Assembly (NCBI GenBank): GCA_030606865.1
Contig: JAUWFQ010000005.1
Coordinates: forward strand, 1-37,844
Direction of reading: 5' to 3'
Source: a bacterium
GTDB taxonomy: Bacteria > Fidelibacterota > Marinisomatia > Marinisomatales > JAHJCW01
DNA length: 37,844 bases
Below, one piece after another: positions 2,340 to 25,966 of the stretch. The notes beneath the pieces were generated by a model that was not told the origin of the DNA, searched no databases, and saw nothing but the letters and a program-made list of their open reading frames with translations. Position numbers and translations under genes: made by a program. Within the stretch, counting starts at the first letter, position 1. Each line of letters opens with the position of its first letter.

Positions 2340-3794
2340 TTAACTCATCCAGTTAGTTTTTGCCTCAGGATTCCATTTGGTTGTGACTTTTTTTAGTTTT
2401 GTCCAGAATTCTATTGAACTTTTGCCGGTAAGGTCCCCAACACCGAATTTTGATTGATTCCAACCACCAAATGAAAACGGTTCTCGCGGAACAGGCACAC
2501 CAATATTTACACCGATCATACCGGCACTTACATTCTCTGCTACATATTTTGCCAAGCCACCCGATTGAGTAAATACAGCCGCTGCATTACCATATTGTGA
2601 GCTATTTTCAATTTTCAATGCCTGTTCTACTGTATCTACGTGAATAATTGATAAAACCGGTCCAAATACTTCTTCTTGAGCTATGTTCATTTCGGGGGTC
2701 ACGTGATCAATTACAGTCGGTCCCACATAAAATCCATTTTCTTTATTCTTAACAGTAGCTCCTCGTCCATCAACTAAAATATCAGCTCCCTGTTCTTCTG
2801 CTTCAGTAATATAATTTTCAATACGTTTCTGCGCATCTTTCGAAATAATGGCACCAAGAGTTTTACCAGGTATGATCGTTTTTGCTTTTTCACAGATTCC
2901 CTTGATTATGCCATCAACGTTACCAACAGCTATAACCGCTGCTGCTGCCATACATCGCTGACCAGCGCAACCTGTCATGGATGCAGCTACATCTGCAGCG
3001 GTCATTTCATGATTTGCATCTGGTAAAACCAGAAGATAATTCTTTGCTCCGCCCAATGTCAGCACTCTCTTATTTTGACTGGTAGCACGTTGATAAACTA
3101 TTTTTGCTACTTTAGTAGAACCAACAAAAGTAACGGCATCAATGTCCGCGTGGTCACAAATGGCTTCTACAGATTCCCGGTCACCATTTACAATATTAAA
3201 AATTCCATCGGGTAATCCTGCTTCCGTTAAAAGTTCTGCAATTCGTATTGCACTGATTGGAACCTGTTCTGAAGGTTTGAGAATCATTGCATTGCCTAAA
3301 GCAATTGCATTGGGCATTGTCCAGTGGGGAACCATATTGGGGAAATTAAATGGTGCTATAGAAGCCACTACACCAAGGGGATATCGCTCAGAACGACATT
3401 CAACACCTTTGCTAACCTCAAGTATTTCTCCCTGCACAAGCTGAGGTAATGAACAGGCAAATTCAGTTAACTCAATGGACTTCTCAACTTCTGCAATGGC
3501 TTCAGGCAAAGTTTTGCCATTTTCCTCATGAACTAATACAGCCAACTCTTTTAAATTCTTTTCAAGAAGATTTTTATATCGATAAAATACTTGAACTCTT
3601 TCTTTAATGGAGATTGCAGACCATTTAATAAATGCAGTTTTGGCTGAGGTTACAGCATCATCTAAAATGTCAGAACCATTAAGGGGAACCTTAGATATTA
3701 TTTCTCCGTTTAAGGGACTGGTAACATCCAGAAAATCACCCTTGAAAGTTACCTTCTGACCGTTATAATAATTTGTTAGCGGTTTATACTTGAT
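2340..3794 (-). CDS. mmsA: Methylmalonate/malonate-semialdehyde dehydrogenase (acylating)
   Basis: This CoA-acylating aldehyde dehydrogenase converts methylmalonate or malonate semialdehyde to propionyl-CoA or acetyl-CoA, the end of thymine and uracil catabolism after transamination of the beta-amino acid. The catalytic Cys lies in TGCAGQRC (about C281 of 484) and the cofactor-binding region includes FVGSTKVA. The first ATG, GTG or TTG in frame is a TTG at 3545, which would remove about 83 residues. Upstream of it the frame stays open and encodes a normal family N-terminus (KPLTNYYNG, then VTSPLNGEIISKVPL, then SAKTAFIKWS). The frame is closed by TAG at 3806-3804, just before a strong Shine-Dalgarno. 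The start I annotate is therefore ATC at 3794. It is the first gene of the operon. Confidence 0.88.
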   Translation of the reverse strand: MKYKPLTNYYNGQKVTFKGDFLDVTSPLNGEIISKVPLNGSDILDDAVTSAKTAFIKWSAISIKERVQVFYRYKNLLEKNLKELAVLVHEENGKTLPEAIAEVEKSIELTEFACSLPQLVQGEILEVSKGVECRSERYPLGVVASIAPFNFPNMVPHWTMPNAIALGNAMILKPSEQVPISAIRIAELLTEAGLPDGIFNIVNGDRESVEAICDHADIDAVTFVGSTKVAKIVYQRATSQNKRVLTLGGAKNYLLVLPDANHEMTAADVAASMTGCAGQRCMAAAAVIAVGNVDGIIKGICEKAKTIIPGKTLGAIISKDAQKRIENYITEAEEQGADILVDGRGATVKNKENGFYVGPTVIDHVTPEMNIAQEEVFGPVLSIIHVDTVEQALKIENSSQYGNAAAVFTQSGGLAKYVAENVSAGMIGVNIGVPVPREPFSFGGWNQSKFGVGDLTGKSSIEFWTKLKKVTTKWNPEAKTNWMS

Positions 3795-3798
3795 AGAA

Positions 3799-3805
3799 CC
3801 TCCCT
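3799..3805 (-). promoter_or_regulatory. Strong ribosome binding site of the pyrimidine operon
   Basis: The minus strand reads AGGGAGG, ending 4 nt before an ATC codon (3794-3792). This site, together with the in-frame TAG just upstream of it, fixes translation initiation near 3794 although no ATG, GTG or TTG is present there. Confidence 0.6.
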
Positions 3806-3912
3806 ATTGAATGTAAATGGAAAAGATATTTTGTAAAATTACTATATAATACCTGCTGTTTTTTTGACTATTTTATGAACAATAACTGAACCTTGAATTT
3901 TTTAATTTGGAA

Positions 3913-3926
3913 AATGGCTAGCCATT
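3913..3926. promoter_or_regulatory. 14-bp perfect palindrome upstream of the pyrimidine operon
   Basis: AATGGCTAGCCATT is a perfect palindrome about 120 bp upstream of the mmsA start. It could be an operator for a dimeric repressor, but no second copy and no adjacent regulator gene were seen. The rest of 3806-4208 is AT-rich and shows no gene that I can support. Confidence 0.2.
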
Positions 3927-4208
3927 ATAACAAATAACTCCGATTAATTAGACCCTTTTTACAGAAAATTTTGAAGTTGAATACTTTCATAATTTCTCAA
4001 ATTTACAAAACCTCATGAAATATCCCATAACAATTATCATTTCTAAGGGGCAGGAGCATTGATACAGAAATAATATACCTATGGTTTGATTTTGAAATAA
4101 ATCTTTGCAGTATAAAATATAATGACTGAAGTAGCCATAAATAGCCAAAAAATGATGGTAAAATAGCATAGTTGTTATTGCACACTTTCAAAAATTGTCA
4201 TTGTAAAA

Positions 4209-7002: not shown

Positions 7003-8845
7003 AACAAAAACCCATATAAGAGTTCTATTCTGGTTTTTAGGTTTTAATATTTTATTGTCTATAGGGCTTAATTATTTCTATCTGGTTTTCACTCCCGGTT
7101 GGAATAAGTTATTTAGTATAGTATTTCTGCATTCTGCCTTAGTTTCAAATATATTGTTGATCTACCTGATGGTTGCGCTACCTCTGTTCACGCTCGGGGT
7201 TGGTTCAAGATATCGAACTCCAGTATTCATCTTGTTTGTGGTCATCCTTTCAAGTCTCCATATTCTCAATTTGATTGATATTGCTATTTATAGAATATTC
7301 AAGTTCCATTTCAACAGTATGGTCATTAATCTTATCTTTACGGAAGGTGCCAAAGATTCTTTGCACCTCGGGTTCAATACCTTGGCAACCTTGGGACTTA
7401 TCGTGATGGGAATTGTAACCATTGAAGTATTGTTAATCTATAAGGTATTTCATAGGTTCGGTTATAAACCCATTTCAAAACGTATTACCACTGCTGCCAT
7501 TACAATAAGCCTATTAATAGTATCTACTGACAAATTAACTTTCGCCATTGCTGATCTTTATAACCGCAGCGAAGTCACCCGTTTTAGCAAGGTATTCCCG
7601 TTATATCAACCCCTGACAATCAAGCGGTTTATGTATAAGAATTTTGGATTTAAGGTCGATAGAGAAGAAATGCTAATTTTTGACCAAAGTTACAGTAGTT
7701 TGGATTATCCCAAACGACCCCTAATCGGCCCAAAGCAAGCTCACCCTGTGAATATAGTATGGATTGTAATCGATGCCTGGCGTTATGACATGTTATCAGA
7801 GGAACTAACACCAAACATCTGGGACTTTTCAAAAAGGTCCACCATTTTTATGAATCACTATAGCGGTGGTAATGCCTCACGTTTCGGAATATTTACTTTA
7901 TTCTACGGTATTCACGGTTATTACTGGCATCAGTTCTTAGGTGAGCGACAGAGTCCGGTCTTCATAGACCAACTGAAAAAATTGAATTATGATTTCAAGA
8001 TTATCTCAAGCTCAAAATTAACTAATCCTGAATTTCGGAAAACTGCTTTCATCAAGATACCAGAGCACATTGTGGACACATTGGATGGGAACCGGGCCGA
8101 AAATAAAGACCCCTTATTGACTACAACATTTTTATCTTGGCTGAATACCAGAGATACGAGCAAACCTTTCTTTTCGTTTTTGTTTTATGATGCCCCGCAC
8201 GGTCCCTATAGTTATCCGGATGGATTCGAAAAATACACGCCCTCCAATAAGCAACTAAATTATCTCACGGTTGGAAAGAAGGATTCTCTCAGTCTCTTGA
8301 ATAGTTATAAGAATGCGATCTATTTCGATGACTCGGAAGTTGGGAAGATCATCACTGCCATGGAAAAACAGGGTCTCTGGGATAATACTATTCTGATTAT
8401 TACGGGTGACCACGGAGAAGAATTTTATGAGACCGGATTTTGGGGACATACGAGCGCTTTTTCTGATTACCAGACAAAAGTCCCGCTGTTACTGTATGTA
8501 CCAAACCGGGACTCTAATAAAGTGGAGTATTTGACCTCGCATGTTGATTTAGTGCCGACGATGCTGGCATTACTGGGTTATAAGGATGACGAACATATTT
8601 ACACGCAGGGACAATCGTTATTAGAGGGTCAGGGACATGAATACATCGTGGTATCAGGCTGGGATGATTGTGCCATCATCAATTCGGAACATTTTTTAGT
8701 TTTCTCGTTCGAATCATACAATATAGCTTCTTGGGAAGTCCGTGACACCCAATATCGTCTCATTAATAATGATCGCGATATTCTGAAGCAAAAGCGTTCC
8801 GATATCATGAACGTAGTGGCAAGTTTTAAGGAGTATTTGAAATAA
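6989..8845 (+). CDS. YejM/PbgA-like inner-membrane protein with sulfatase-fold domain
   Basis: This 618-residue protein has about five membrane segments in residues 10-185, then a basic linker and a periplasmic alkaline-phosphatase/sulfatase-fold domain. That is the architecture of YejM (PbgA, LapC), which in enterobacteria controls LPS synthesis through LapB and FtsH. Conserved pieces are IVWIVIDAWRYDML (first metal-site Asp), SGGNASRFGIFTLFYG and ITGDHGEEF, with a further His in WGHTSAF. At the catalytic nucleophile region the sequence is NASRF, without the CxPxR motif of true sulfatases. I chose ATG 6989, preceded by AGGA seven bases upstream, over the TTG two codons earlier. Catalytic activity is doubtful; a structural or regulatory role is possible. 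Confidence 0.8.
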   Translation: MNRSETKTHIRVLFWFLGFNILLSIGLNYFYLVFTPGWNKLFSIVFLHSALVSNILLIYLMVALPLFTLGVGSRYRTPVFILFVVILSSLHILNLIDIAIYRIFKFHFNSMVINLIFTEGAKDSLHLGFNTLATLGLIVMGIVTIEVLLIYKVFHRFGYKPISKRITTAAITISLLIVSTDKLTFAIADLYNRSEVTRFSKVFPLYQPLTIKRFMYKNFGFKVDREEMLIFDQSYSSLDYPKRPLIGPKQAHPVNIVWIVIDAWRYDMLSEELTPNIWDFSKRSTIFMNHYSGGNASRFGIFTLFYGIHGYYWHQFLGERQSPVFIDQLKKLNYDFKIISSSKLTNPEFRKTAFIKIPEHIVDTLDGNRAENKDPLLTTTFLSWLNTRDTSKPFFSFLFYDAPHGPYSYPDGFEKYTPSNKQLNYLTVGKKDSLSLLNSYKNAIYFDDSEVGKIITAMEKQGLWDNTILIITGDHGEEFYETGFWGHTSAFSDYQTKVPLLLYVPNRDSNKVEYLTSHVDLVPTMLALLGYKDDEHIYTQGQSLLEGQGHEYIVVSGWDDCAIINSEHFLVFSFESYNIASWEVRDTQYRLINNDRDILKQKRSDIMNVVASFKEYLK

Positions 8846-9045
8846 TATTTTATTAGATAGAAAGATTAGGTTCATGATTTGAGTAAGACAGGATTTTGTT
8901 ATGGACAGTAGCGAAGCTAAGAGGATCAAAGCAAGACTGTGATTTTCATTAAGGATATTTTATTGAATGTCATATTAACGACGATTAATGAAATATATTA
9001 ATGTAAAAGAATTCTTGAAGACAAGAAACGAACTTGGAGGATTAG

Positions 9046-10697: not shown

Positions 10698-11855
10698 ATG
10701 AATAAAATCACTAAAGATCCGATGTTTCGCTATCTTGCATTATTATCAATTGCAGCGACAGTTGGACTTCAAGTATGGCGCACACTATTCAATAATTTTG
10801 CAGTTGAAATCGTACATTTAGAAGGTAACCACATTGGGATAATTCAATCGGTTAGAGAAATTCCGGGATTTTTGGCATTGCTAATTATATATATCATTCT
10901 TATTGTTAAAGAACATAGATTATCAGCTCTTTCTATAGCAATTTTGGGATTTGGAGTTGGAATAACCGGAATTTTTCCTTCATACACCGGACTTATAGCA
11001 ACTACTATGATCATGAGTTTCGGTTTTCATTATTTTGAGACTACAAATCAATCGCTAACACTCCAATATTTTGATCAAGATTCATCTCCTTTAGTTATTG
11101 GCAAATTAAGGAGTTACGGAGCTGCAGCTAATATAGCAGTTGGAATATTTATTTATTTCATTAGTTATATACTATCCTACAAAGCAACTTTCGTATTAAT
11201 AGGACTCGTTATTGTAATCGTGGGAACTTGGGGGATATTACAAAATCCCACCCGAGAAGGGATTCCACTGCAGCATAAAAAAATGATCTTCAAAAAGAAA
11301 TATTGGTTGTATTATTTATTAACATTTATGGCAGGCGCAAGGCGACAAATATTTGTCGCCTTTGCGGTATTTTTATTAGTAAAAAAATTCGAATTCTCTA
11401 TTCAAGAGATTACTATGCTATTCGTTTTAAACAATACTATAAACTACTTTCTTAATCCGCTTATAGGAAAAGCGATTATAAAGTTTGGGGAACGTAGAGT
11501 ATTATCTTTGGAATATTTTAGTCTCATAATAATCTTCATCGGATATGCCTTTGTCGAATCGAAAGCAATCATCGTGGTTTTATATGTTTTAGACCATATT
11601 TTCTTCAATTTCGCAATGGGAATCCGTACCTATTTTCAAAAAATAGGTGACCCTAAAGATATTGCACCAAGTATGGCAGTTGGGTTCACTATTAACCATA
11701 TTGCTGCTGTTATAATTCCTGCTTTAGGGGGATTAATGTGGATTTTGGATTATAGGATTCCCTTCATCGCCGGTGCTGTAATGAGTGCGATTTCATTGTC
11801 ATTAGTACAATTTATCAAATATAAAAAAAATAAGATTACGTATGTTCAAAAATAA
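10698..11855 (+). CDS. MFS transporter
   Basis: This 385-residue integral membrane protein has about twelve hydrophobic segments in two halves, as in the major facilitator superfamily. The central loop near residues 175-200 is basic (NPTREGIPLQHKKMIFKKKYW). The second half begins with LTFMAGARRQIFVAFAVFLLVKKF, which looks like a conserved loop and helix. I cannot assign a substrate. The coding sequence contains a perfect 24-bp palindrome at 11339-11362. It has its own short upstream gap and no evident operon partner. Confidence 0.8.
   Translation: MNKITKDPMFRYLALLSIAATVGLQVWRTLFNNFAVEIVHLEGNHIGIIQSVREIPGFLALLIIYIILIVKEHRLSALSIAILGFGVGITGIFPSYTGLIATTMIMSFGFHYFETTNQSLTLQYFDQDSSPLVIGKLRSYGAAANIAVGIFIYFISYILSYKATFVLIGLVIVIVGTWGILQNPTREGIPLQHKKMIFKKKYWLYYLLTFMAGARRQIFVAFAVFLLVKKFEFSIQEITMLFVLNNTINYFLNPLIGKAIIKFGERRVLSLEYFSLIIIFIGYAFVESKAIIVVLYVLDHIFFNFAMGIRTYFQKIGDPKDIAPSMAVGFTINHIAAVIIPALGGLMWILDYRIPFIAGAVMSAISLSLVQFIKYKKNKITYVQK
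11339..11362. repeat. Perfect 24-bp palindrome inside the MFS gene
   Basis: The two arms AAGGCGACAAAT and ATTTGTCGCCTT are exact reverse complements with no spacer. It encodes part of the ARRQIFVAF segment. Such a long GC-flanked palindrome is unusual in this AT-rich coding sequence. Confidence 0.7.
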
Positions 11856-16886: not shown

Positions 16887-19800
16887 TTAATTTCTCTTTA
16901 ATTTAAATGACTTCCACAAGTAATATATCGTTGGAATTACCAGTAGCGTAAGTATTGTGGAAGTAACCATTCCGCCTACCATTGGGGCAGCAATCCGCTT
17001 CATTACTTGAGAACCTGTTCCACTTCCCCATAAAATTGGCAGTAAGCCGACAATTGTAGTCGTAACTGTCATTAATTTGGGTCGTACGCGATCAACGGCA
17101 CCTTCCATTACTGCGCCATATAAATCTTTTACTGAATCCATTGTCCCGTTATTTTTTCGATATTTATATGCTTGGTCAAGATAAATTAACATGACGACAC
17201 CGGTCTCAGCGGCAACTCCCGCTAAAGCGATGAATCCCACCCCTACAGCGACACTCATGTTGTATCCAAGGATATACATGAACCATATTCCACCGACCAA
17301 TGCAAATGGTAGAGATAGCATTACAATTAAACTCTCGGTTAAATTTTTAAAATTGAAATACAACAGTAGGAATATGATCAGTAGAGTAATAGGTATCACA
17401 ATCTTGAGTCTTTTATTGGCTCGTTCCATATATTCGAACTGACCACTCCAGACAATTGAGTAACCCGCCGGAACTGTAAATTCCTTGGCAAGTGCCCCTT
17501 TCGCTCGTTTAACATAAGTTCCAACATCAATACCGGTAATATCCACGTAAATCCAACCTGTTCTGCGGGCATTTTCACTCTTAATTACCGGAGCTCCCTT
17601 CCGAATTATTATATCGGCGACTTGAGTAATTGGTATCTGCGCTCCACTAGGTGTTGGTATGATTATCCGTTTAAGCTTAGTTATACTATCGCGCAATTCT
17701 CTGCTATATCGTACATTAATTGGGTAACGCTCTAAGCCTTCGACAGTATATGATACATTCATACCGCCAATTGCCGATTGTATTATATCTTGTATATCAC
17801 CAACCGTAAGACCATATCGTGCAGCTTCATCGCGATTTATCTTAAAATCGATAAAATTGCCTCCGGTCACCTTATCGGCATAAGCACTAAGCGTACCAGG
17901 AATTTTCTGTACAATTGCCTGCACCTTGGCACCTAACATATTAAGTGTATCAAGATCAGCTCCCATTAACTTTATGCCCACCGGTGTCTTAATTCCGGTA
18001 CTCAACATATCAATACGTGTTTTGATTGGCATTGTCCACGCATTTGTTAAACCGGGGAATTGTATTGATGCGTTCAGATCAGTGGTCAATTCCTCTAAAG
18101 TTGTAGATCGATGTTCAGACCAGAGAATATTCAAAAAGGAACGAATCCAGTTTGGTAAATTCCAATCAGAGAACCAGCGCTTAACAAAGATGCGTTCCGG
18201 CCAATCCTGAGGTTGTTTAAGCGTTATTGTAGTTTCTATCATACTAAGCGGTGCCGGATCAGTGGCTGTTTCTGCTCTTCCCACTTTACCAAATACTCGC
18301 TCTACTTCAGGAAAGGATTTAATGATCTTATCTGTTTGTTGCAGCAATTCCTTCGCTTTGGTAATCGAAATACCAGGATCGGTTGTAGGCATGTAAAGCA
18401 AATCACCTTCATTAAGCGGTGGCATAAATTCCGAACCAATTCTTTTTAACGGGAAAACGGTAACTACTAAAATCATTATTGCAGCTAATATTGTTGTTTT
18501 TCTGAATTTTAGCACAAATTTGATTAGGGGTCTATAAATCCGAATTAGAAATCGACTGATTGGGTTTTTATTCTCCGGGCGTATCGTACCTTTAATAAAA
18601 TATCCCATCAATACCGGAACAATCGTTATCGCCATGATTGCTGATGCACCCATTGCATAGGTTTTCGTAAATGCCAATGGCTTGAATAATCGTCCTTCCT
18701 GTGCTTGTAATGTAAATACCGGTAAAAACGATACCATTATTATCAATAATGAATAGAACAATGCAGGTCCTACTTCCTTTGATGCATTAAGGATCAACTG
18801 CCATCTGTCAATTTTACCATCATCTTTCTCAATGTGTTTGTGAGCATTTTCAATCATCACAATTACTGCATCAACCATAGCCCCAATCGCAATTGCAATA
18901 CCACTTAATGACATTATATTTGCATTTATTCCTTGATAGCGCATTATTAAAAATGCCATCAATATTCCAACAGGCAAGGTAAATATGGCAACAAAGGAAC
19001 TTCTGAAGTGTAATAGAAATATTATCAACACTAACGCAACAACTATACTTTCTTCAGTTAATTTCTCTTTTAAGTTTTTAATTGCCCGCTTAATTAATTG
19101 TGATCGATCATAAGCTGTATTAATCGTTACTCCTTCCGGCAGCCCGACTTTCAATTCTTCGAGTTTTTCTTTTACGTTGTCAATAACTGCTAGTGCATTC
19201 TCGCCGTATCGCATAACGATGATACCACCGACCACTTCTCCGATTCCATCGCGCTCAGCGAGACCCCTTCGCAGTTCCGGTCCTAAATGAATATTCGCGA
19301 CATTTCTGAGTAAAATCGGGACACCGTCTTCATCTACACCTAAAGGAACTTTTTTCAAATCATCAATTGATTTAATATAACCTAATCCTCTAACCATAAA
19401 TTCAGTTTCTGCCATTTCTATTAATTTTCCGCCTACATCATTATTACTGCGTTTTATAGCCATTTTGATTTTATTGAGCGGGATGTTGTAAGCAAGGAGC
19501 TTATTGGGGTCAACATCAACCTGATATTGCTTAACATAACCCCCAATGCTGGCAACTTCTGATACGCCGGGAACACTCATTAATTCATATCTTAAATAAA
19601 AATCCTGAATTGCTCGCAATTCCTGCAAATCATGATCATTACTTTCCACAGTATATTCGTAAACCCAACCAACACCTGTTGCATCCGGTCCTAATTGTGG
19701 ATTAACTCCATCCGGGAGCCTTCCCGATACAAAATTAAGATATTCTAGGACTCTACTCCGAGCCCAATAGATATCAGTTCCATCTTCAAATATTATGTAA

Positions 19801-20078
19801 ACAAACGATACACCAAGAAATGAATATCCTCTTACAACTTTTGCATATGGCACTGAAAGCATTGCTGTAGTTAATGGGTATGTGATTTGATCTTCAACTA
19901 CCTGTGGAGCCTGACCCATATAATCAGTCTGAATAATAACTTGGACATCACTCAAGTCAGGTATAGCATCTAGCGGCGTTGTTGATACAGCTACAATTCC
20001 ACCAAGTATTATTGCGATAGTAGCTAATATTACCAAGAAGCGATTATTAACGGACCATTCAATTATTCTTTCAATCAT
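16887..20078 (-). CDS. cusA: CusA/CzcA-type RND heavy-metal efflux pump
   Basis: This 1063-residue inner-membrane proton-driven pump subunit has the RND layout of twelve spans and two large periplasmic loops. Family marks include NRFLVILATIAIILGG at the start and GAMVDAVIVMIENAHKH (the proton-relay Asp in TM4). The methionine-containing segments LLYMPTT, PLSMIETT and RIDMLSTG correspond to the three-Met copper/silver site of CusA, which favours monovalent Cu/Ag over the CzcA type. The start ATG directly follows the cusB stop codon, with AAAGGAGA inside cusB, so the two are translationally coupled. The length is normal. Confidence 0.92.
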   Translation of the reverse strand: MIERIIEWSVNNRFLVILATIAIILGGIVAVSTTPLDAIPDLSDVQVIIQTDYMGQAPQVVEDQITYPLTTAMLSVPYAKVVRGYSFLGVSFVYIIFEDGTDIYWARSRVLEYLNFVSGRLPDGVNPQLGPDATGVGWVYEYTVESNDHDLQELRAIQDFYLRYELMSVPGVSEVASIGGYVKQYQVDVDPNKLLAYNIPLNKIKMAIKRSNNDVGGKLIEMAETEFMVRGLGYIKSIDDLKKVPLGVDEDGVPILLRNVANIHLGPELRRGLAERDGIGEVVGGIIVMRYGENALAVIDNVKEKLEELKVGLPEGVTINTAYDRSQLIKRAIKNLKEKLTEESIVVALVLIIFLLHFRSSFVAIFTLPVGILMAFLIMRYQGINANIMSLSGIAIAIGAMVDAVIVMIENAHKHIEKDDGKIDRWQLILNASKEVGPALFYSLLIIMVSFLPVFTLQAQEGRLFKPLAFTKTYAMGASAIMAITIVPVLMGYFIKGTIRPENKNPISRFLIRIYRPLIKFVLKFRKTTILAAIMILVVTVFPLKRIGSEFMPPLNEGDLLYMPTTDPGISITKAKELLQQTDKIIKSFPEVERVFGKVGRAETATDPAPLSMIETTITLKQPQDWPERIFVKRWFSDWNLPNWIRSFLNILWSEHRSTTLEELTTDLNASIQFPGLTNAWTMPIKTRIDMLSTGIKTPVGIKLMGADLDTLNMLGAKVQAIVQKIPGTLSAYADKVTGGNFIDFKINRDEAARYGLTVGDIQDIIQSAIGGMNVSYTVEGLERYPINVRYSRELRDSITKLKRIIIPTPSGAQIPITQVADIIIRKGAPVIKSENARRTGWIYVDITGIDVGTYVKRAKGALAKEFTVPAGYSIVWSGQFEYMERANKRLKIVIPITLLIIFLLLYFNFKNLTESLIVMLSLPFALVGGIWFMYILGYNMSVAVGVGFIALAGVAAETGVVMLIYLDQAYKYRKNNGTMDSVKDLYGAVMEGAVDRVRPKLMTVTTTIVGLLPILWGSGTGSQVMKRIAAPMVGGMVTSTILTLLVIPTIYYLWKSFKLKRN

Positions 20079-21890
20079 TTAAATCTCCTTTGTCTTCATA
20101 CCGCAAACCGGGCAATTGCCTGGTTCTTCCATTACCACGTATGAATGCGATTCCATTGGACAGGTATCATACTTTTGATCAGGATTGTAAGGCTCCTCTT
20201 TTTGAATAAGCTTCATTCCACAATCAGGACATAAGCCAGCTTTATTAACTTTCACATAAGCATGTGATTCCATTGGACAAGTATAGTACGAAAGTGTATT
20301 ATTCTTAATTGTACCAAATGTATTGTTTTCAGTGTTATCCATCTCAGTTTTCACTGTATCATGAGAATTATGATCGTGTCTCATCATTTCATATTTCTGC
20401 ATTTTTGAATTTATATTGTCTTTAGGATTTTCTTGATCATGCTCAGAGTTAATTGGATTTTCAATCGCTTCAATTTTGGTAGTTTTTCTTGAAGCTAACA
20501 TCTTTGCAATACTTTCCTGCAGCTTGCTTTCCGAATCAAGCAGGAACTGTGCTGATGTAACAACAGTCTCTCCGGCTTCAAGTCCTTCCTTAATTTCATA
20601 AAATCCATCACCACTTTCGATTCCAACCATAACATCTCGCGGTACAAATCTCCCTTCGCCTAAAGCGATAAATACTAAGTTTCTTGCACCTGAGTACATT
20701 ACAGCCTCTGTTGGTACAGCTATTACATTCTTTACGGGAACAGATGATATATTTACATTAGCATACATTCCAGGCTTTAACATATTATCTTCATTTGGAA
20801 ACGATAATCTTACTTTTAGTGTGCGTGTTTTTGCATCCAAATATGGATAAACATATTCGACTTTACCGTAAAATTCCTTACCGGGAATATAAGATAGTGT
20901 CATTTTTACATTTTGCCCAACTTGTATCCATGGTACTTCATATTCGTAAATATCAGCATATACCCAAACACTTGATATATTTGAAATCGAATACAAATTC
21001 ATACCCGGCTTTACTTCCATTCCATCTTGAACATGTTTTTTCTCAACTATACCGTTAAATGGCGAGTGAATTTTTAATGTTTTACGTATTGTATAATCTT
21101 TTTCTAATCTATCTATCTGATCGCGAGAAATATCAAAATTCTCTAATCGTTTTCTCGTTGAAGATAACGTGTTTTTCAAATTTTCAATTGCTGAAGTTCT
21201 ATTTTCCTTTTTAGCATCTAATAACCGTAAATATAAATCAACATATTCTTCTTGAGCGGTAACAAGCTGTGGACTATATATTTCCAGTAAAGTATCTCCT
21301 TTTTTTACTTTCTGTCCTGTTGTATTAACATATGTTTTTTCTACCCAACCGATAAATTTTGTATGTACATGAGCCGTCTTTGCTTCATCATAGTCAATTC
21401 TCCCAATAGTCCTAATGTCCTGATGTAAATCTCTCTGAACAGCATATGCCGTACGAACACCAATATTTTGTTCGGTTGCAGGATTTATTTTAACTGTTGC
21501 CCCAAATGTTTCCTCACCCTTATAAACGGGAATCAAATCCATACCCATCGGCGATTTACCAGGTTTCGGAGATATATAGGTAGGATCCATCGGCGCTCGA
21601 TAATATAGTATCTCCTTTGAACCTGAAGAGGATTTATCCTCATCTGTTGTTGGCTTACTTTCATCTGAGGATCCATATAATGGAGTTAGATTCATTCCAC
21701 AAATCGGACAATTTCCAGGTCCCTCTTGAATCACATTAGGATGCATTCCACAAGTATATAATTCTTCACTCATCGATTCTATTTTAGTATCATGTTTAGA
21801 TGAATCAGCTGTTGAACATCCGGTCACTAATAATTCTATGCTTATGATCGATAAAAACACAATTGTTTTTAAAATATATTTAGTTTTCAT
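20079..21890 (-). CDS. cusB: CusB-type membrane fusion lipoprotein with four heavy-metal-binding modules
   Basis: This 603-residue periplasmic adaptor links CusA to CusC. It has a lipobox LVTGC (C25). Two heavy-metal-binding modules follow: YTCGMHPNVIQEGPGNCPICGM (about 46-66) and YYRAPMDPTYISPKPGKSPM (about 96-115), the latter without Cys. Then come the barrel-sandwich, alpha-hairpin and beta-barrel domains of RND adaptors. A His/Asp-rich linker (EMMRHDHNSHDTVKTEMD) leads to two more modules in the last 70 residues, each with CPMESH and CGM. I chose ATG 21890 because AGGAGAG lies just before it; an upstream ATG at 21908 lacks one. It overlaps the cusC end by 11 bp. Confidence 0.88.
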   Translation of the reverse strand: MKTKYILKTIVFLSIISIELLVTGCSTADSSKHDTKIESMSEELYTCGMHPNVIQEGPGNCPICGMNLTPLYGSSDESKPTTDEDKSSSGSKEILYYRAPMDPTYISPKPGKSPMGMDLIPVYKGEETFGATVKINPATEQNIGVRTAYAVQRDLHQDIRTIGRIDYDEAKTAHVHTKFIGWVEKTYVNTTGQKVKKGDTLLEIYSPQLVTAQEEYVDLYLRLLDAKKENRTSAIENLKNTLSSTRKRLENFDISRDQIDRLEKDYTIRKTLKIHSPFNGIVEKKHVQDGMEVKPGMNLYSISNISSVWVYADIYEYEVPWIQVGQNVKMTLSYIPGKEFYGKVEYVYPYLDAKTRTLKVRLSFPNEDNMLKPGMYANVNISSVPVKNVIAVPTEAVMYSGARNLVFIALGEGRFVPRDVMVGIESGDGFYEIKEGLEAGETVVTSAQFLLDSESKLQESIAKMLASRKTTKIEAIENPINSEHDQENPKDNINSKMQKYEMMRHDHNSHDTVKTEMDNTENNTFGTIKNNTLSYYTCPMESHAYVKVNKAGLCPDCGMKLIQKEEPYNPDQKYDTCPMESHSYVVMEEPGNCPVCGMKTKEI

Positions 21891-23163
21891 TATAACTCTC
21901 CTTGTCAATATTAATTATTCCTATAGTTTGATATAATTTTGCGATTAGAGTATTTTGCTTAGCTTTAACAGAAGCAAACTCTAACCTTATTTTTACCCCT
22001 AACCGTACACTATCCAATAAATCTAAAAAACTGATTTTCCCTGTTTCATAGGCCGAATAGGCGGAAGATAACATCTGTTCAGATTCTTGAATCAGTCGCT
22101 CATCATATATTATGTATGTATCATTGATCTCACGCAATTCTTTCAAAGTTGAAAGGATATCATATTCAACATTATTCCAAATATCTGATAATAAATCTTC
22201 TTCTTGTTGTAGATTAAAAAAAGCTGACTTGACCTGCGCTTTATTCTTTTTAAACCAAAGGGGCAGATTGATACCAACTTTAACACCGAGGGCGTCGGCT
22301 CCTGCCGATACAGCTCCACCTAGATCAGTTGGACCAATAAATGTATAAGTCAATCCTGCTGTCAAATCGGGATAGTTTTTTAGTCTGGCGAGCTTATACT
22401 GATCAGACGCTATTGCGATGTTAGCCTGAGATATAGCAAATAAAGAATTGTACTTATTGGCTAGATTGAGCCAATATTGATTCGGTTTATAAATTAAATT
22501 TAATTGGAATTTATCGCCAATTATACTCGTTGAAAATTGTCCATCAAATAGAATTTGCAGATCATTAATGCTTTTTTCTAAACTACTTTCAATTTCATTT
22601 ATTTTACTTTCTACTAATGCCGCTTCAATTTGAAGTTTAATAATCGGGTGTAGTGTAAACCCTATCCCGTGAGCATGTCGACTTTGTGCAATATTTTCAA
22701 AGGATTTTAGTTCAACTTTGTATTGCTCTAATATTTCTAATGATTCACTAAGTTTAAAATAATCGGCTAATCTTTTTCGAAGTAAAAAGGATATTTTTAC
22801 TTTCGTGTTATCCAAATTGAGTCCACTAATGTCTGCTCTGACTTTTTCTATGTTTCGTTCACGTTTTAATTTTCCCCATAGCGGAAATTTTTGTCCCAGC
22901 GTAATTTGGTTTTCAATAGGTCCATTTCTTGTCTCTATTGAATTGATGCTAAATGAGCTTTCTATCATAGGATCGGGTAAAACACCCGATATTTTAATTT
23001 TTTCTTTAGCTGCCTGATAGGCTTTTTCTGCTGCTAGAACTTCGCGGTTTATTTTTAAAACCAATTCTATAGGATTTATTGTTTGCGCTAAGCCCGATGC
23101 AACTATAGCAAATAATACTATAAGTAGTTTATTCCACCCTGTTATTTTTGATTTTGATATCAT
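21880..23163 (-). CDS. cusC: CusC/TolC-type outer-membrane efflux protein
   Basis: This 427-residue outer-membrane channel of the TolC family has two long alpha-helical repeats, each with stretches of the type found in outer-membrane efflux proteins (ILEQYKVELKSFENIAQSRH; YSAYETGKISFLDLLDSVR), and the conserved GVKVGINLPLW segment. An N-terminal signal peptide (WNKLLIVLFAIVASGLAQT) is present. I chose ATG 23163, preceded by AAAGGAG five bases upstream, over a GTG two codons earlier. It is the first pump gene; its 3' end carries the cusB Shine-Dalgarno. A hairpin-like inverted repeat lies just upstream. Confidence 0.88.
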   Translation of the reverse strand: MISKSKITGWNKLLIVLFAIVASGLAQTINPIELVLKINREVLAAEKAYQAAKEKIKISGVLPDPMIESSFSINSIETRNGPIENQITLGQKFPLWGKLKRERNIEKVRADISGLNLDNTKVKISFLLRKRLADYFKLSESLEILEQYKVELKSFENIAQSRHAHGIGFTLHPIIKLQIEAALVESKINEIESSLEKSINDLQILFDGQFSTSIIGDKFQLNLIYKPNQYWLNLANKYNSLFAISQANIAIASDQYKLARLKNYPDLTAGLTYTFIGPTDLGGAVSAGADALGVKVGINLPLWFKKNKAQVKSAFFNLQQEEDLLSDIWNNVEYDILSTLKELREINDTYIIYDERLIQESEQMLSSAYSAYETGKISFLDLLDSVRLGVKIRLEFASVKAKQNTLIAKLYQTIGIINIDKESYNEN

Positions 23164-23194
23164 GTACACTCCTTTATTAATTAATTTTTTATTT

Positions 23195-23238
23195 ATTACG
23201 CCAAATGATAATCATGGCATAATACAAATAGGCGTAAT
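23195..23238. promoter_or_regulatory. Inverted repeat upstream of cusC
   Basis: ATTACGCC at 23195-23202 is matched by GGCGTAAT at 23231-23238, a perfect 8-bp inverted repeat with a 28-nt spacer, placed between the Cys-rich gene and cusC. It may be an operator or an mRNA hairpin affecting relative expression. Confidence 0.35.
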
Positions 23239-23278
23239 TCTCCTTACAAGGAAAACCACTTTGTGAAAATGGAGTGTT

Positions 23279-23650
23279 TTAAACTAGGAGTGGAGTTTGA
23301 AAGCCCGGATGGACTTTAGAAAAACATAATTTATCTACTATCTCAAGTAGCGTATATTCTTCAGATATATTGAAAATTTCGGAGAAAGAAACATTATAAT
23401 CAACTGTCAAGTTTTTCTGTAGATCTACTTTATTTAGTGGAGCCGAAGTAACAGGTTGAAAGAGTGCCACAGTACATTCCGTCATGGATTCACAACAATC
23501 ATCTCCCGCCATATCCATATCGCATGTGTTGGAAGATTCCCCACACCCTGCCATATCGCAGCTTATATGCGTGAAAAAAGGCATCGCAAACAATCCTGCG
23601 AAAAGCAGTAATACAATAACTGATAATAGTTTTATTTTATTATTATTCAT
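23279..23650 (-). CDS. Cys/Met-rich exported protein of the metal efflux locus
   Basis: This 123-residue protein begins with a membrane anchor or signal (residues 7-27). A compact cluster of likely metal ligands follows: C31, M33, C36, C43, M45, M47, C52, C53 and C59, in CDMAGC, TCDMDMAGDDCC and MTEC. The C-terminal half is ordinary and ends HPGFQTPLLV. Position and composition suggest a periplasmic copper/silver carrier or sensor for the pump, analogous in role, not in sequence, to CusF. I know no named family for it. It lies 115 bp upstream of cusC on the same strand. Confidence 0.65.
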   Translation of the reverse strand: MNNNKIKLLSVIVLLLFAGLFAMPFFTHISCDMAGCGESSNTCDMDMAGDDCCESMTECTVALFQPVTSAPLNKVDLQKNLTVDYNVSFSEIFNISEEYTLLEIVDKLCFSKVHPGFQTPLLV

Positions 23651-23759
23651 TGATTAACGTTATGATCTATAATGTCTAAATAAGTCTTAAATTTCGTGGC
23701 AAGTTACAATTTCCCATTTAAAAAACTGTTACACTATTATTGAAAAATTGTATAAGATT

Positions 23760-24341
23760 TTAGTCGGAACCAATTGTATCAATTGAATTTCTTGCCCTAC
23801 CTCGAAGAGATTTAAACTGGCTTGGGCTCATACCGGTAACTTTTTTGAATTGGTTAGAAAGATATTGCACATTGCTATATCCTAATCGATATGCGATTAC
23901 AGACAAAGTCAATTCATCATATATTAACAGTTCTTTAACACGTTCAATCTTTTGCAGGATGAAATATTTTTCGATAGTTATACTTTCAACTGAGGAAAAT
24001 AAAGTACTTAAAAATGAATAATCATGATTTAGTTTTTGTACTAAGTAATCAGATAGATTTATGTTCATTTCTTCTAACCCATCTTGATAGATTAAATCAA
24101 TAATCAACGTCTTTATATTGTCAATTATTTCGGCATTTTTGTCAACTAACAATTCGAATCCGTTTTGCTCTAGGATCTGGGATATTTCATTCATATCAGG
24201 ATGATTCCCGGAATATTCCAACGTTGCCAGTCCAAATCGTTCAATAGTTGTTGTAAATCCTAACTTATCAAGTTCTTCTTTCACGACTTTACTACAGCGT
24301 GGGCATACCATGTTTTTTATTCTTAGATTTATTGTCGGCAT
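23760..24341 (-). CDS. HMA-AraC fusion transcription regulator
   Basis: This 193-residue protein has an N-terminal heavy-metal-associated domain (INLRIKNMVCPRCSKVV, metal ligands C13 and C16). It ends in an AraC/XylS helix-turn-helix domain of about 100 residues (ELTLSVIAYRLGYSNVQYLS, then FKKVTGMSPSQFK). The fusion implies direct sensing of a soft metal and control of the efflux genes that follow on the same strand. I chose ATG 24341 because AAAGAG lies upstream; an in-frame TTG at 24401 lacks a ribosome site and would add a low-similarity leader. Such fusions recur in Bacteroidota; the exact metal is unknown. Confidence 0.82.
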   Translation of the reverse strand: MPTINLRIKNMVCPRCSKVVKEELDKLGFTTTIERFGLATLEYSGNHPDMNEISQILEQNGFELLVDKNAEIIDNIKTLIIDLIYQDGLEEMNINLSDYLVQKLNHDYSFLSTLFSSVESITIEKYFILQKIERVKELLIYDELTLSVIAYRLGYSNVQYLSNQFKKVTGMSPSQFKSLRGRARNSIDTIGSD

Positions 24342-25539: not shown

Positions 25540-25600
25540 GTATATGTAGTAGAAGTTCTAAAATAAATTGCAATTAAAGAATTACGAGCGGGGGAATATT

Positions 25601-25966
25601 TTGAAGAAAAGAATACTTATAGTTGACGATGAACCATCAATTGTTAGACTCTTGTCATTGCGGTTACAAGTGAAGGGTTATGAAATTATTGAAGCATACG
25701 ATGGATTGGAATGTGTGAAAATTGCCAAAAAAGAAGTACCGGATTTAATATTATTGGACATTAAAATGCCAAATGAAGATGGAATTGGTGCTTTTAAGAA
25801 ACTAATTCAGATGGATATAACAAAAGATATACCTGTCATTTTTATGACTGCTTATCCCAAATTAGAAATAAAGAATCTAGTGCTTAAGATGGGAGCTAAG
25901 GATTGCATTTCTAAACCGTTTATCAGTGAAGATTTTGAACAAACTATCGCCATGGCTATTGCATAA
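25601..25966 (+). CDS. Single-domain response regulator (CheY-like receiver)
   Basis: This 121-residue receiver domain has the acidic pair D9-D10 in ILIVDDEPS, the phosphoacceptor D53 in LILLDIKMP, the switch Thr in VIFMTAY and the conserved Lys in CISKPF. There is no output domain. I chose TTG 25601 because GGGGGAAT lies before it and the domain begins at once; an in-frame TTG at 25568 would add an unusual leader. It is followed with a 1-bp stop/start overlap by an unknown protein, which is probably its partner or output. Confidence 0.85.
   Translation: MKKRILIVDDEPSIVRLLSLRLQVKGYEIIEAYDGLECVKIAKKEVPDLILLDIKMPNEDGIGAFKKLIQMDITKDIPVIFMTAYPKLEIKNLVLKMGAKDCISKPFISEDFEQTIAMAIA

Follow-up and report, generated by a model that had tools for sequence, protein, structure and literature searches.

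We identified a small gene directly upstream of cusCBA that is probably a cis-acting, metal-sensing leader (an upstream open reading frame) of the CutF type, at which stalling of the ribosome would open cusC for translation. The stretch of DNA that was analysed, 37,844 nucleotides in length, is referred to below as the window. Comparison across related loci shows that the encoded protein belongs to a family with a conserved C-terminus and a spacer of near-fixed length, that this family is linked to metal genes, and that a covarying stem involves the Shine-Dalgarno (SD) sequence of the next gene. The binding of metal, the stalling, the direction of the response and the target of the regulator are inferred.

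The initial annotation of this DNA had described a regulator gene, a small gene and cusCBA, and its coordinates, strands and gene order are correct (Table 1). The small Cys/Met-rich protein is indeed encoded directly before cusCBA, with matches to OEP, to HlyD_D23 plus HMBD, and to CusA/CzcA following downstream. A same-strand gene is present within 1000 nucleotides downstream of the leader, the start of cusC being 115 nucleotides away. Six cysteines (C31, C36, C43, C52, C53 and C59) and four methionines (M33, M45, M47 and M56) are clustered within 29 residues, and one further cysteine is found at position 108. The N-terminus carries lysine plus a hydrophobic stretch, which agrees with the earlier description of an exported Cys/Met-rich protein, the export signal being recognized by eye only.

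Table 1. Features of the regulator, leader and cusCBA locus, in positions of the window
Feature	Position	Strand	Basis
HMA-AraC regulator gene, 193 aa, CxxC at C13/C16	23760..24341	-	Pfam, alignment, structure model
Operator-like 36-nt motif (AAAATCTTATACAATTTTTCAATAATAGTGTAACAG), overlapping the regulator stop codon, upstream of the leader	23726..23761	-	
Leader gene, 123-aa Cys/Met-rich protein, predicted to be exported, ending PLLV-stop	23279..23650	-	
Anti-SD arm ACACTCC, from the second nucleotide past the leader stop codon	23271..23277	-	
Inner hairpin 1, predicted intergenic RNA	23234..23259	-	fold
Inner hairpin 2, predicted intergenic RNA	23194..23224	-	fold
cusC SD arm GGAGTGT, partner of 23271-23277	23166..23172	-	
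Likely cusC start, ATG	23161-23163	-	
cusC, outer-membrane efflux protein	21880..23163	-	OEP, 3.5e-32
cusB, adaptor, four HMBD stretches	20079..21890	-	HlyD_D23 + HMBD
cusA, heavy-metal RND pump (CusA/CzcA)	16887..20078	-	TIGR00914, 1221 bits

The 80 wide loci that were fetched contained 68 ORFs of the family, distributed over 67 loci. At E ≤ 1e-4, a family profile (65 members) had matches in 83 of the 245 phylum genomes and in 43 of the 94 better ones. This count is better than that of a single-protein search (65/245 genomes at E ≤ 0.01), which includes weak hits that the profile did not confirm. The 29 genomes reached through HMA-AraC loci, mostly titled Bacteroidota, yielded one weak family match (E 0.006). 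No consistent Pfam or NCBIfam match was found for the 65 members, and the weak Pfam matches of single members are led by Yqai (E 0.0031). All are shorter than 150 amino acids where compared (123 in the window, 112-140 in alignment A1). Columns 31, 36, 42, 43 and 52 (Cys), 71 and 120 (Pro), and 121 (Leu) are conserved in at least 90% of sequences. The window copy is a diverged member, with G35 and T42 at two positions that are cysteine in 58 and 59, respectively, of the 65 aligned sequences, and without the PP that 49 of the 68 ORFs have within their last 15 residues. One locus (L099) contains tandem leader copies at 8632-8997 and 11169-11534, the first of which is followed by a short OEP match only.

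In 48 of the 68 copies, cusC, cusB or cusA is found closely downstream on the same strand. Behind ten of the other 20 lies a gene for a small exported protein carrying a VCSFC motif; these proteins form a single cluster, which Pfam leaves unnamed, and in several of the loci an HMA lipoprotein is encoded further on. Two more precede OEP and a multicopper oxidase, and two are located at contig ends. Single cases lie behind a P-type ATPase (L050), or before an HMA lipoprotein (L069), a DUF4396 protein (L064), an outer-membrane-like protein plus an HMA protein of that same cluster (L094), peroxiredoxin and SOD (L080), and CcmF (L096). This survey had been proposed in the initial annotation, which held that the small gene should not occur mostly away from metal efflux genes; the link to metal genes is tight, cus genes following in the 48 copies given above. 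On the other side, 37/68 copies have a same-strand gene less than 100 nucleotides upstream, mostly of types without a link to metals (isochorismatase or glucosidase, for example), so that first place in the transcript is not given for the leader.

Just past the stop codon of the small gene lies a stretch complementary to the SD of the gene that follows (ACACTCC at 23277-23271 with GGAGTGT at 23172-23166 in the window). This arm differs between genomes and its SD partner differs along with it, as in GACCTTTCCTGTT/AACAGGAAGGGTT (L099), ATTATCCT/AGGATAAT (L098) and AACTCCTA/TAGGAGTT (L085). The 68 ORFs provided 64 junctions, two having no downstream gene and two no start within 150 nucleotides; start codons were picked by SD strength and start type, independently of the arm. 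Matched arm/SD duplexes have a mean of -9.6 kcal/mol, against -5.9 kcal/mol for arms mismatched with the SDs of other loci (z -14.5), and none of 2000 permutations of the 64 junctions fell below -6.8 kcal/mol. At 159 other same-strand junctions of the same loci the corresponding means, from which junctions too short to hold both arms are dropped, are -3.41 and -3.42 (z 0.04). A scan in 3-nucleotide steps places the optimum at the stop codon (offsets -3 and 0). Duplex strength reaches -6 kcal/mol in 57/64 junctions and -8 kcal/mol in 50/64, and seven are weak (above -6). When one copy was taken per genus (22 genera), in none of 20 draws did any of 1000 permutations attain the observed mean; two loci in different genera with identical leader ends and intergenic arms (L084 and L126; transfer or mis-binning) count twice in this test. 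Of 26 loci fetched later, nine were at a contig end or had no suitable start at 15-150 nucleotides. The remaining 17 junctions gave -12.0 against -7.0 kcal/mol (0/5000 permutations), including two weak duplexes; these loci were all found by the family profile, and some come from genomes of earlier loci (G027, G068, G191).

Predicted folds agree with the pairing. Minimum free energy structures have at least five pairs between the arm and the SD region at 57/64 junctions, compared with 34/101 other junctions, and the intergenic fold of the window is better than 200/200 shuffles (z -3.61). Three sub-alignments (A2, A3 and A4) comprise 33 of the 64 junctions; L089, L067 and L072, which were divergent or of unusual length, were left out, as was a fourth group of six. 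The covariation score was reached by 0/500 shuffles in A2, 0/500 in A3 and 9/500 in A4, and the share of paired cells in A4 is not beyond shuffles (53/500), all of these shuffles ignoring relatedness. The RNAalifold consensus contains the stem in two of the three sub-alignments and misses it in A3. Pairs changed on both sides number 4 of 8 in A2, 6 of 11 in A4 (SD helix) and 4 of 19 in A3; in A2 and A4 the SD helix alone bears on the switch. The A3 loci (14 of L049-L077) belong to one genus, in which an additional AGGATT/AATCCT helix lengthens the SD stem to 19 pairs. When the stop codon and the 13 nucleotides after it are covered, mean SD openness rises from 0.26 to 0.52 (0.48 to 0.85 in the window) and from 0.29 to 0.49 at the 17 later junctions, compared with 0.47 to 0.48 at other junctions.

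A covarying SD stem is what a switch of translation initiation needs, and this argues against control of the type described for CruR, in which stalling would act on Rho-dependent transcription termination and not on access to the SD. CruR of Bordetella pertussis, as described in excerpts of PMC9426467, is likewise a Cys-motif leader (CXXC) with a C-terminal arrest-like motif that precedes copper operons. It works through Rho, and it differs in its DUF2946 domain, its RAPP motif, its dispensable signal peptide and its response, copper switching expression off. The Pfam families listed for the 65 members at E ≤ 0.1, 14 in number, do not include DUF2946, and we regard CruR-type control as highly improbable here.

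The same SD-stem logic is found in Sec/YidC leaders, and the leader could respond to a different signal, for instance the state of export or the oxidation of its cysteines in the manner of SecM or VemP, with the metal genes as its output. In toeprinting experiments, ribosomes translating NSP-stop and NAP-stop peptides were arrested while the stop codon occupied the A site (PMC10987492, as excerpted). However, the cysteine columns that are at least 90% conserved and the predominance of metal operons make a signal other than metal quite improbable.

Conservation along the protein peaks in the last four residues (3.74 bits), with PL[LR]I-stop conserved in the family and PLLV-stop in the window, and is lowest in the linker (0.88 bits); the signal, Cys and F.P..SAP regions have about 2 bits and the PP zone 1.49 bits. 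From the last cysteine of the cluster to the end of the protein there are 62 amino acids in the median (interquartile range 62-63, range 33-73), which would suffice for the ribosome tunnel (~30) and the membrane (~17), by the figures that an excerpt of PMC9973294 uses for CutF. The end codons vary synonymously and show no covariation with the SD (z -0.2), which argues that the peptide is what is selected. We had also considered the C-terminal codons, which resemble CTCC, as a possible anti-SD sequence, and rejected this for the same absence of covariation. TGA is the stop codon in 0/68 family copies compared with 154/570 other genes. As a sign of RF1-specific arrest this avoidance was set aside, because TGA terminates two of the copies found later and the stem often includes the G of TAG as a paired base.

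The initial annotation had read the small protein as a periplasmic carrier in the place of CusF. A stable copper/silver carrier or sponge feeding CusCBA would be Cys/Met-rich, exported and encoded next to cusC, as this protein appears to be (its export judged by eye), and a stem at the stop codon would likewise arise if it merely coupled translation to cusC. We consider this reading rather unlikely, and not the best one. In a carrier one would not usually expect an unconserved linker of near-fixed length together with an end that is the best-conserved part. Some copies are followed by operons for which the fetched DNA shows no RND pump, and CusB already has four HMBD metal-binding stretches. 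What points instead to a cis-acting leader is the combination of a stop-anchored stem masking the SD, a conserved C-terminus, a spacer whose length is nearly fixed and whose sequence is not conserved, and a location in front of metal operons of different kinds.

With no excess copper or silver, such a leader would be translated, exported and presumably discarded. As the ribosome leaves at the stop codon, the arm past the stop would pair with the cusC SD and close cusC. Cu(I) or Ag(I) would bind the Cys/Met cluster of the nascent chain outside the ribosome and the membrane, and translation of the metal-bound chain would halt at the terminal codons. The stalled ribosome would then cover the arm and free the SD, allowing cusCBA to be translated. 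A stall would open cusC, and excess metal is the condition under which cusCBA should be expressed; metal is therefore expected to bring about or lengthen the stall. Above this leader switch, the HMA-AraC regulator would probably control transcription from 23726-23761. Several observations count against this reading: the window copy lacks both the PP and two common cysteines, 7/64 and 2/17 duplexes are weak, single copies precede peroxiredoxin/SOD or CcmF, and the stem alone also fits plain translational coupling. In addition, the C-terminal motif of CutF alone caused no stalling of a LepB fusion (PMC9973294, as excerpted).

Nascent-chain metal sensors are already known, and the present arrangement matches that of CutF, in another sequence family and mostly in front of an RND pump. 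In Rhodobacter capsulatus, the nascent CutF chain is exported and has a CxxxC motif as well as a conserved C-terminus, and its copper-dependent pause was proposed to open a stem hiding the cutO SD (PMC9973294). By the excerpted account in that paper, CutF and CutF-like proteins share with our family a length below 150 amino acids, a Cys motif, a conserved C-terminus, a stem on the SD of the next gene, a same-strand metal gene downstream and, as far as the signal can be judged by eye, export, OEP/CusC being the commonest neighbour among CutF-like proteins. The stem has been shown for CutF itself; on comparative evidence, a stem of this type hiding the next SD is present at the window and family junctions. 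In contrast to CutF, the family ends in PL[LR]I-stop, has PP in 49/68 copies and none in the window, and gives no DUF2946 match. Its spacer is about 62 amino acids rather than 45, its anti-SD arm starts at the stop codon, and it is found mostly before an RND pump whereas CutF precedes an oxidase. CzcI of Cupriavidus, by its description in the same source, is similarly small, precedes an RND metal operon and has no PP motif.

The family shares its ending with HYC_CC_PP (NCBIfam NF047658), a group of small Cys-rich proteins of Bacteroidota, and this is our boldest lead. The ending [FYL][LR][ILV]-stop occurs in 61/68 family members and 26/30 HYC_CC_PP proteins (L207-L236), compared with 1/688 proteins of the phylum loci and 20/634 of the HMA-AraC loci, a control that may still include HYC proteins and the regulators. 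Many of the 30 HYC_CC_PP loci appear by eye to precede cusA-like or HMA-like genes. However, the two are separate by sequence: a profile comparison aligns 22 columns only, all in the signal peptide, and the curated cut-off of NF047658 is reached by no member, 1/65 matching at E 0.044 and the window copy giving no match. HYC_CC_PP loci also have no clear SD stem (27/30 junctions, z -2.1), in a weak test in which several starts look misassigned. No match for HYC_CC_PP was found in the literature. We suggest tentatively that the leaders may constitute a phylum-wide arrest-peptide family of their own, sensing metal and holding the stop codon in the A site at PL[LR]I-stop, and that this termination-arrest code may be common to HYC_CC_PP. 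Arrest of this kind is known for other leaders (PMC10987492, as excerpted). If so, one code could serve copper sensing in both groups, through SD unmasking here and perhaps by another route in HYC_CC_PP.

Our search found no literature on the small-protein family, the stop-anchored covarying stem or the PL[LR]I-stop ending; the supplementary lists of PMC9973294 may contain members. Sensing of metal by nascent chains rests on very few cases, and according to an excerpt of a 2024 study arrest by CruR and CutF had yet to be demonstrated experimentally (PMC10987492). A covarying switch at a fixed point offers a clear and cheap test. For small Cys-rich exported proteins encoded before metal operons, carrier should not be the default annotation.

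The regulator gene upstream of the leader encodes an HMA-like N-terminal domain with CxxC joined to an AraC-type C-terminal domain, as had been claimed; it may, as the initial annotation proposed, stand in for CusRS or CueR. Pfam recognizes the AraC part clearly (HTH_18, E 1.8e-13; HTH_AraC, E 9.8e-9), and the HMA part falls below its threshold (E 0.11). The latter is indicated by C13, R15 and C16 (MVCPRC), invariant among 28 aligned sequences, and by a structure model (pLDDT 86) that matches AraC domains and, more weakly, HMA domains of the CopZ type (6ff2_A; TM 0.79 by target length, E 9.8e-3). Relatives are present in 16/245 genomes of the phylum (E ≤ 1e-12). The type is common elsewhere, with at least 577 relatives among the 596 matched stretches listed, and is widespread in Bacteroidota among the matches listed, of which the best 80 were kept. 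A P-type ATPase is found within the fetched DNA at 12/16 regulator loci of the phylum. Among the best 80 other loci, 43 have a P-type ATPase, 14 have CusA and 30 have none of the genes searched for, short contigs included. A literature search for HMA-AraC copper regulators, judged by title, returned nothing relevant. Elsewhere in the window (25568-25966), a receiver-domain protein stands alone, by eye with no obvious kinase adjoining.

Directly 3' of the HMA-AraC gene we found a 36-nucleotide motif, both in the window (23726-23761) and in loci L047, L107-L111, L113, L116 and L118. A matrix built by eye from nine loci of the phylum, the window locus among them, beats the best of 20 random segments from the same locus in 25/80 other loci (3.8 expected). 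Its mean score is 2.9 downstream of the regulator, -4.4 upstream and -5.0 in random segments. As this operator-like motif sits before the leader in the window, the leader operon is probably the target of the regulator, which would control its transcription from there. In L113, a frame about 80 nucleotides past the regulator (3438-3995) starts, by eye, like an HYC_CC_PP protein (STHYCGD...) and is followed by cusA; it may be a leader from a different family occupying this position.
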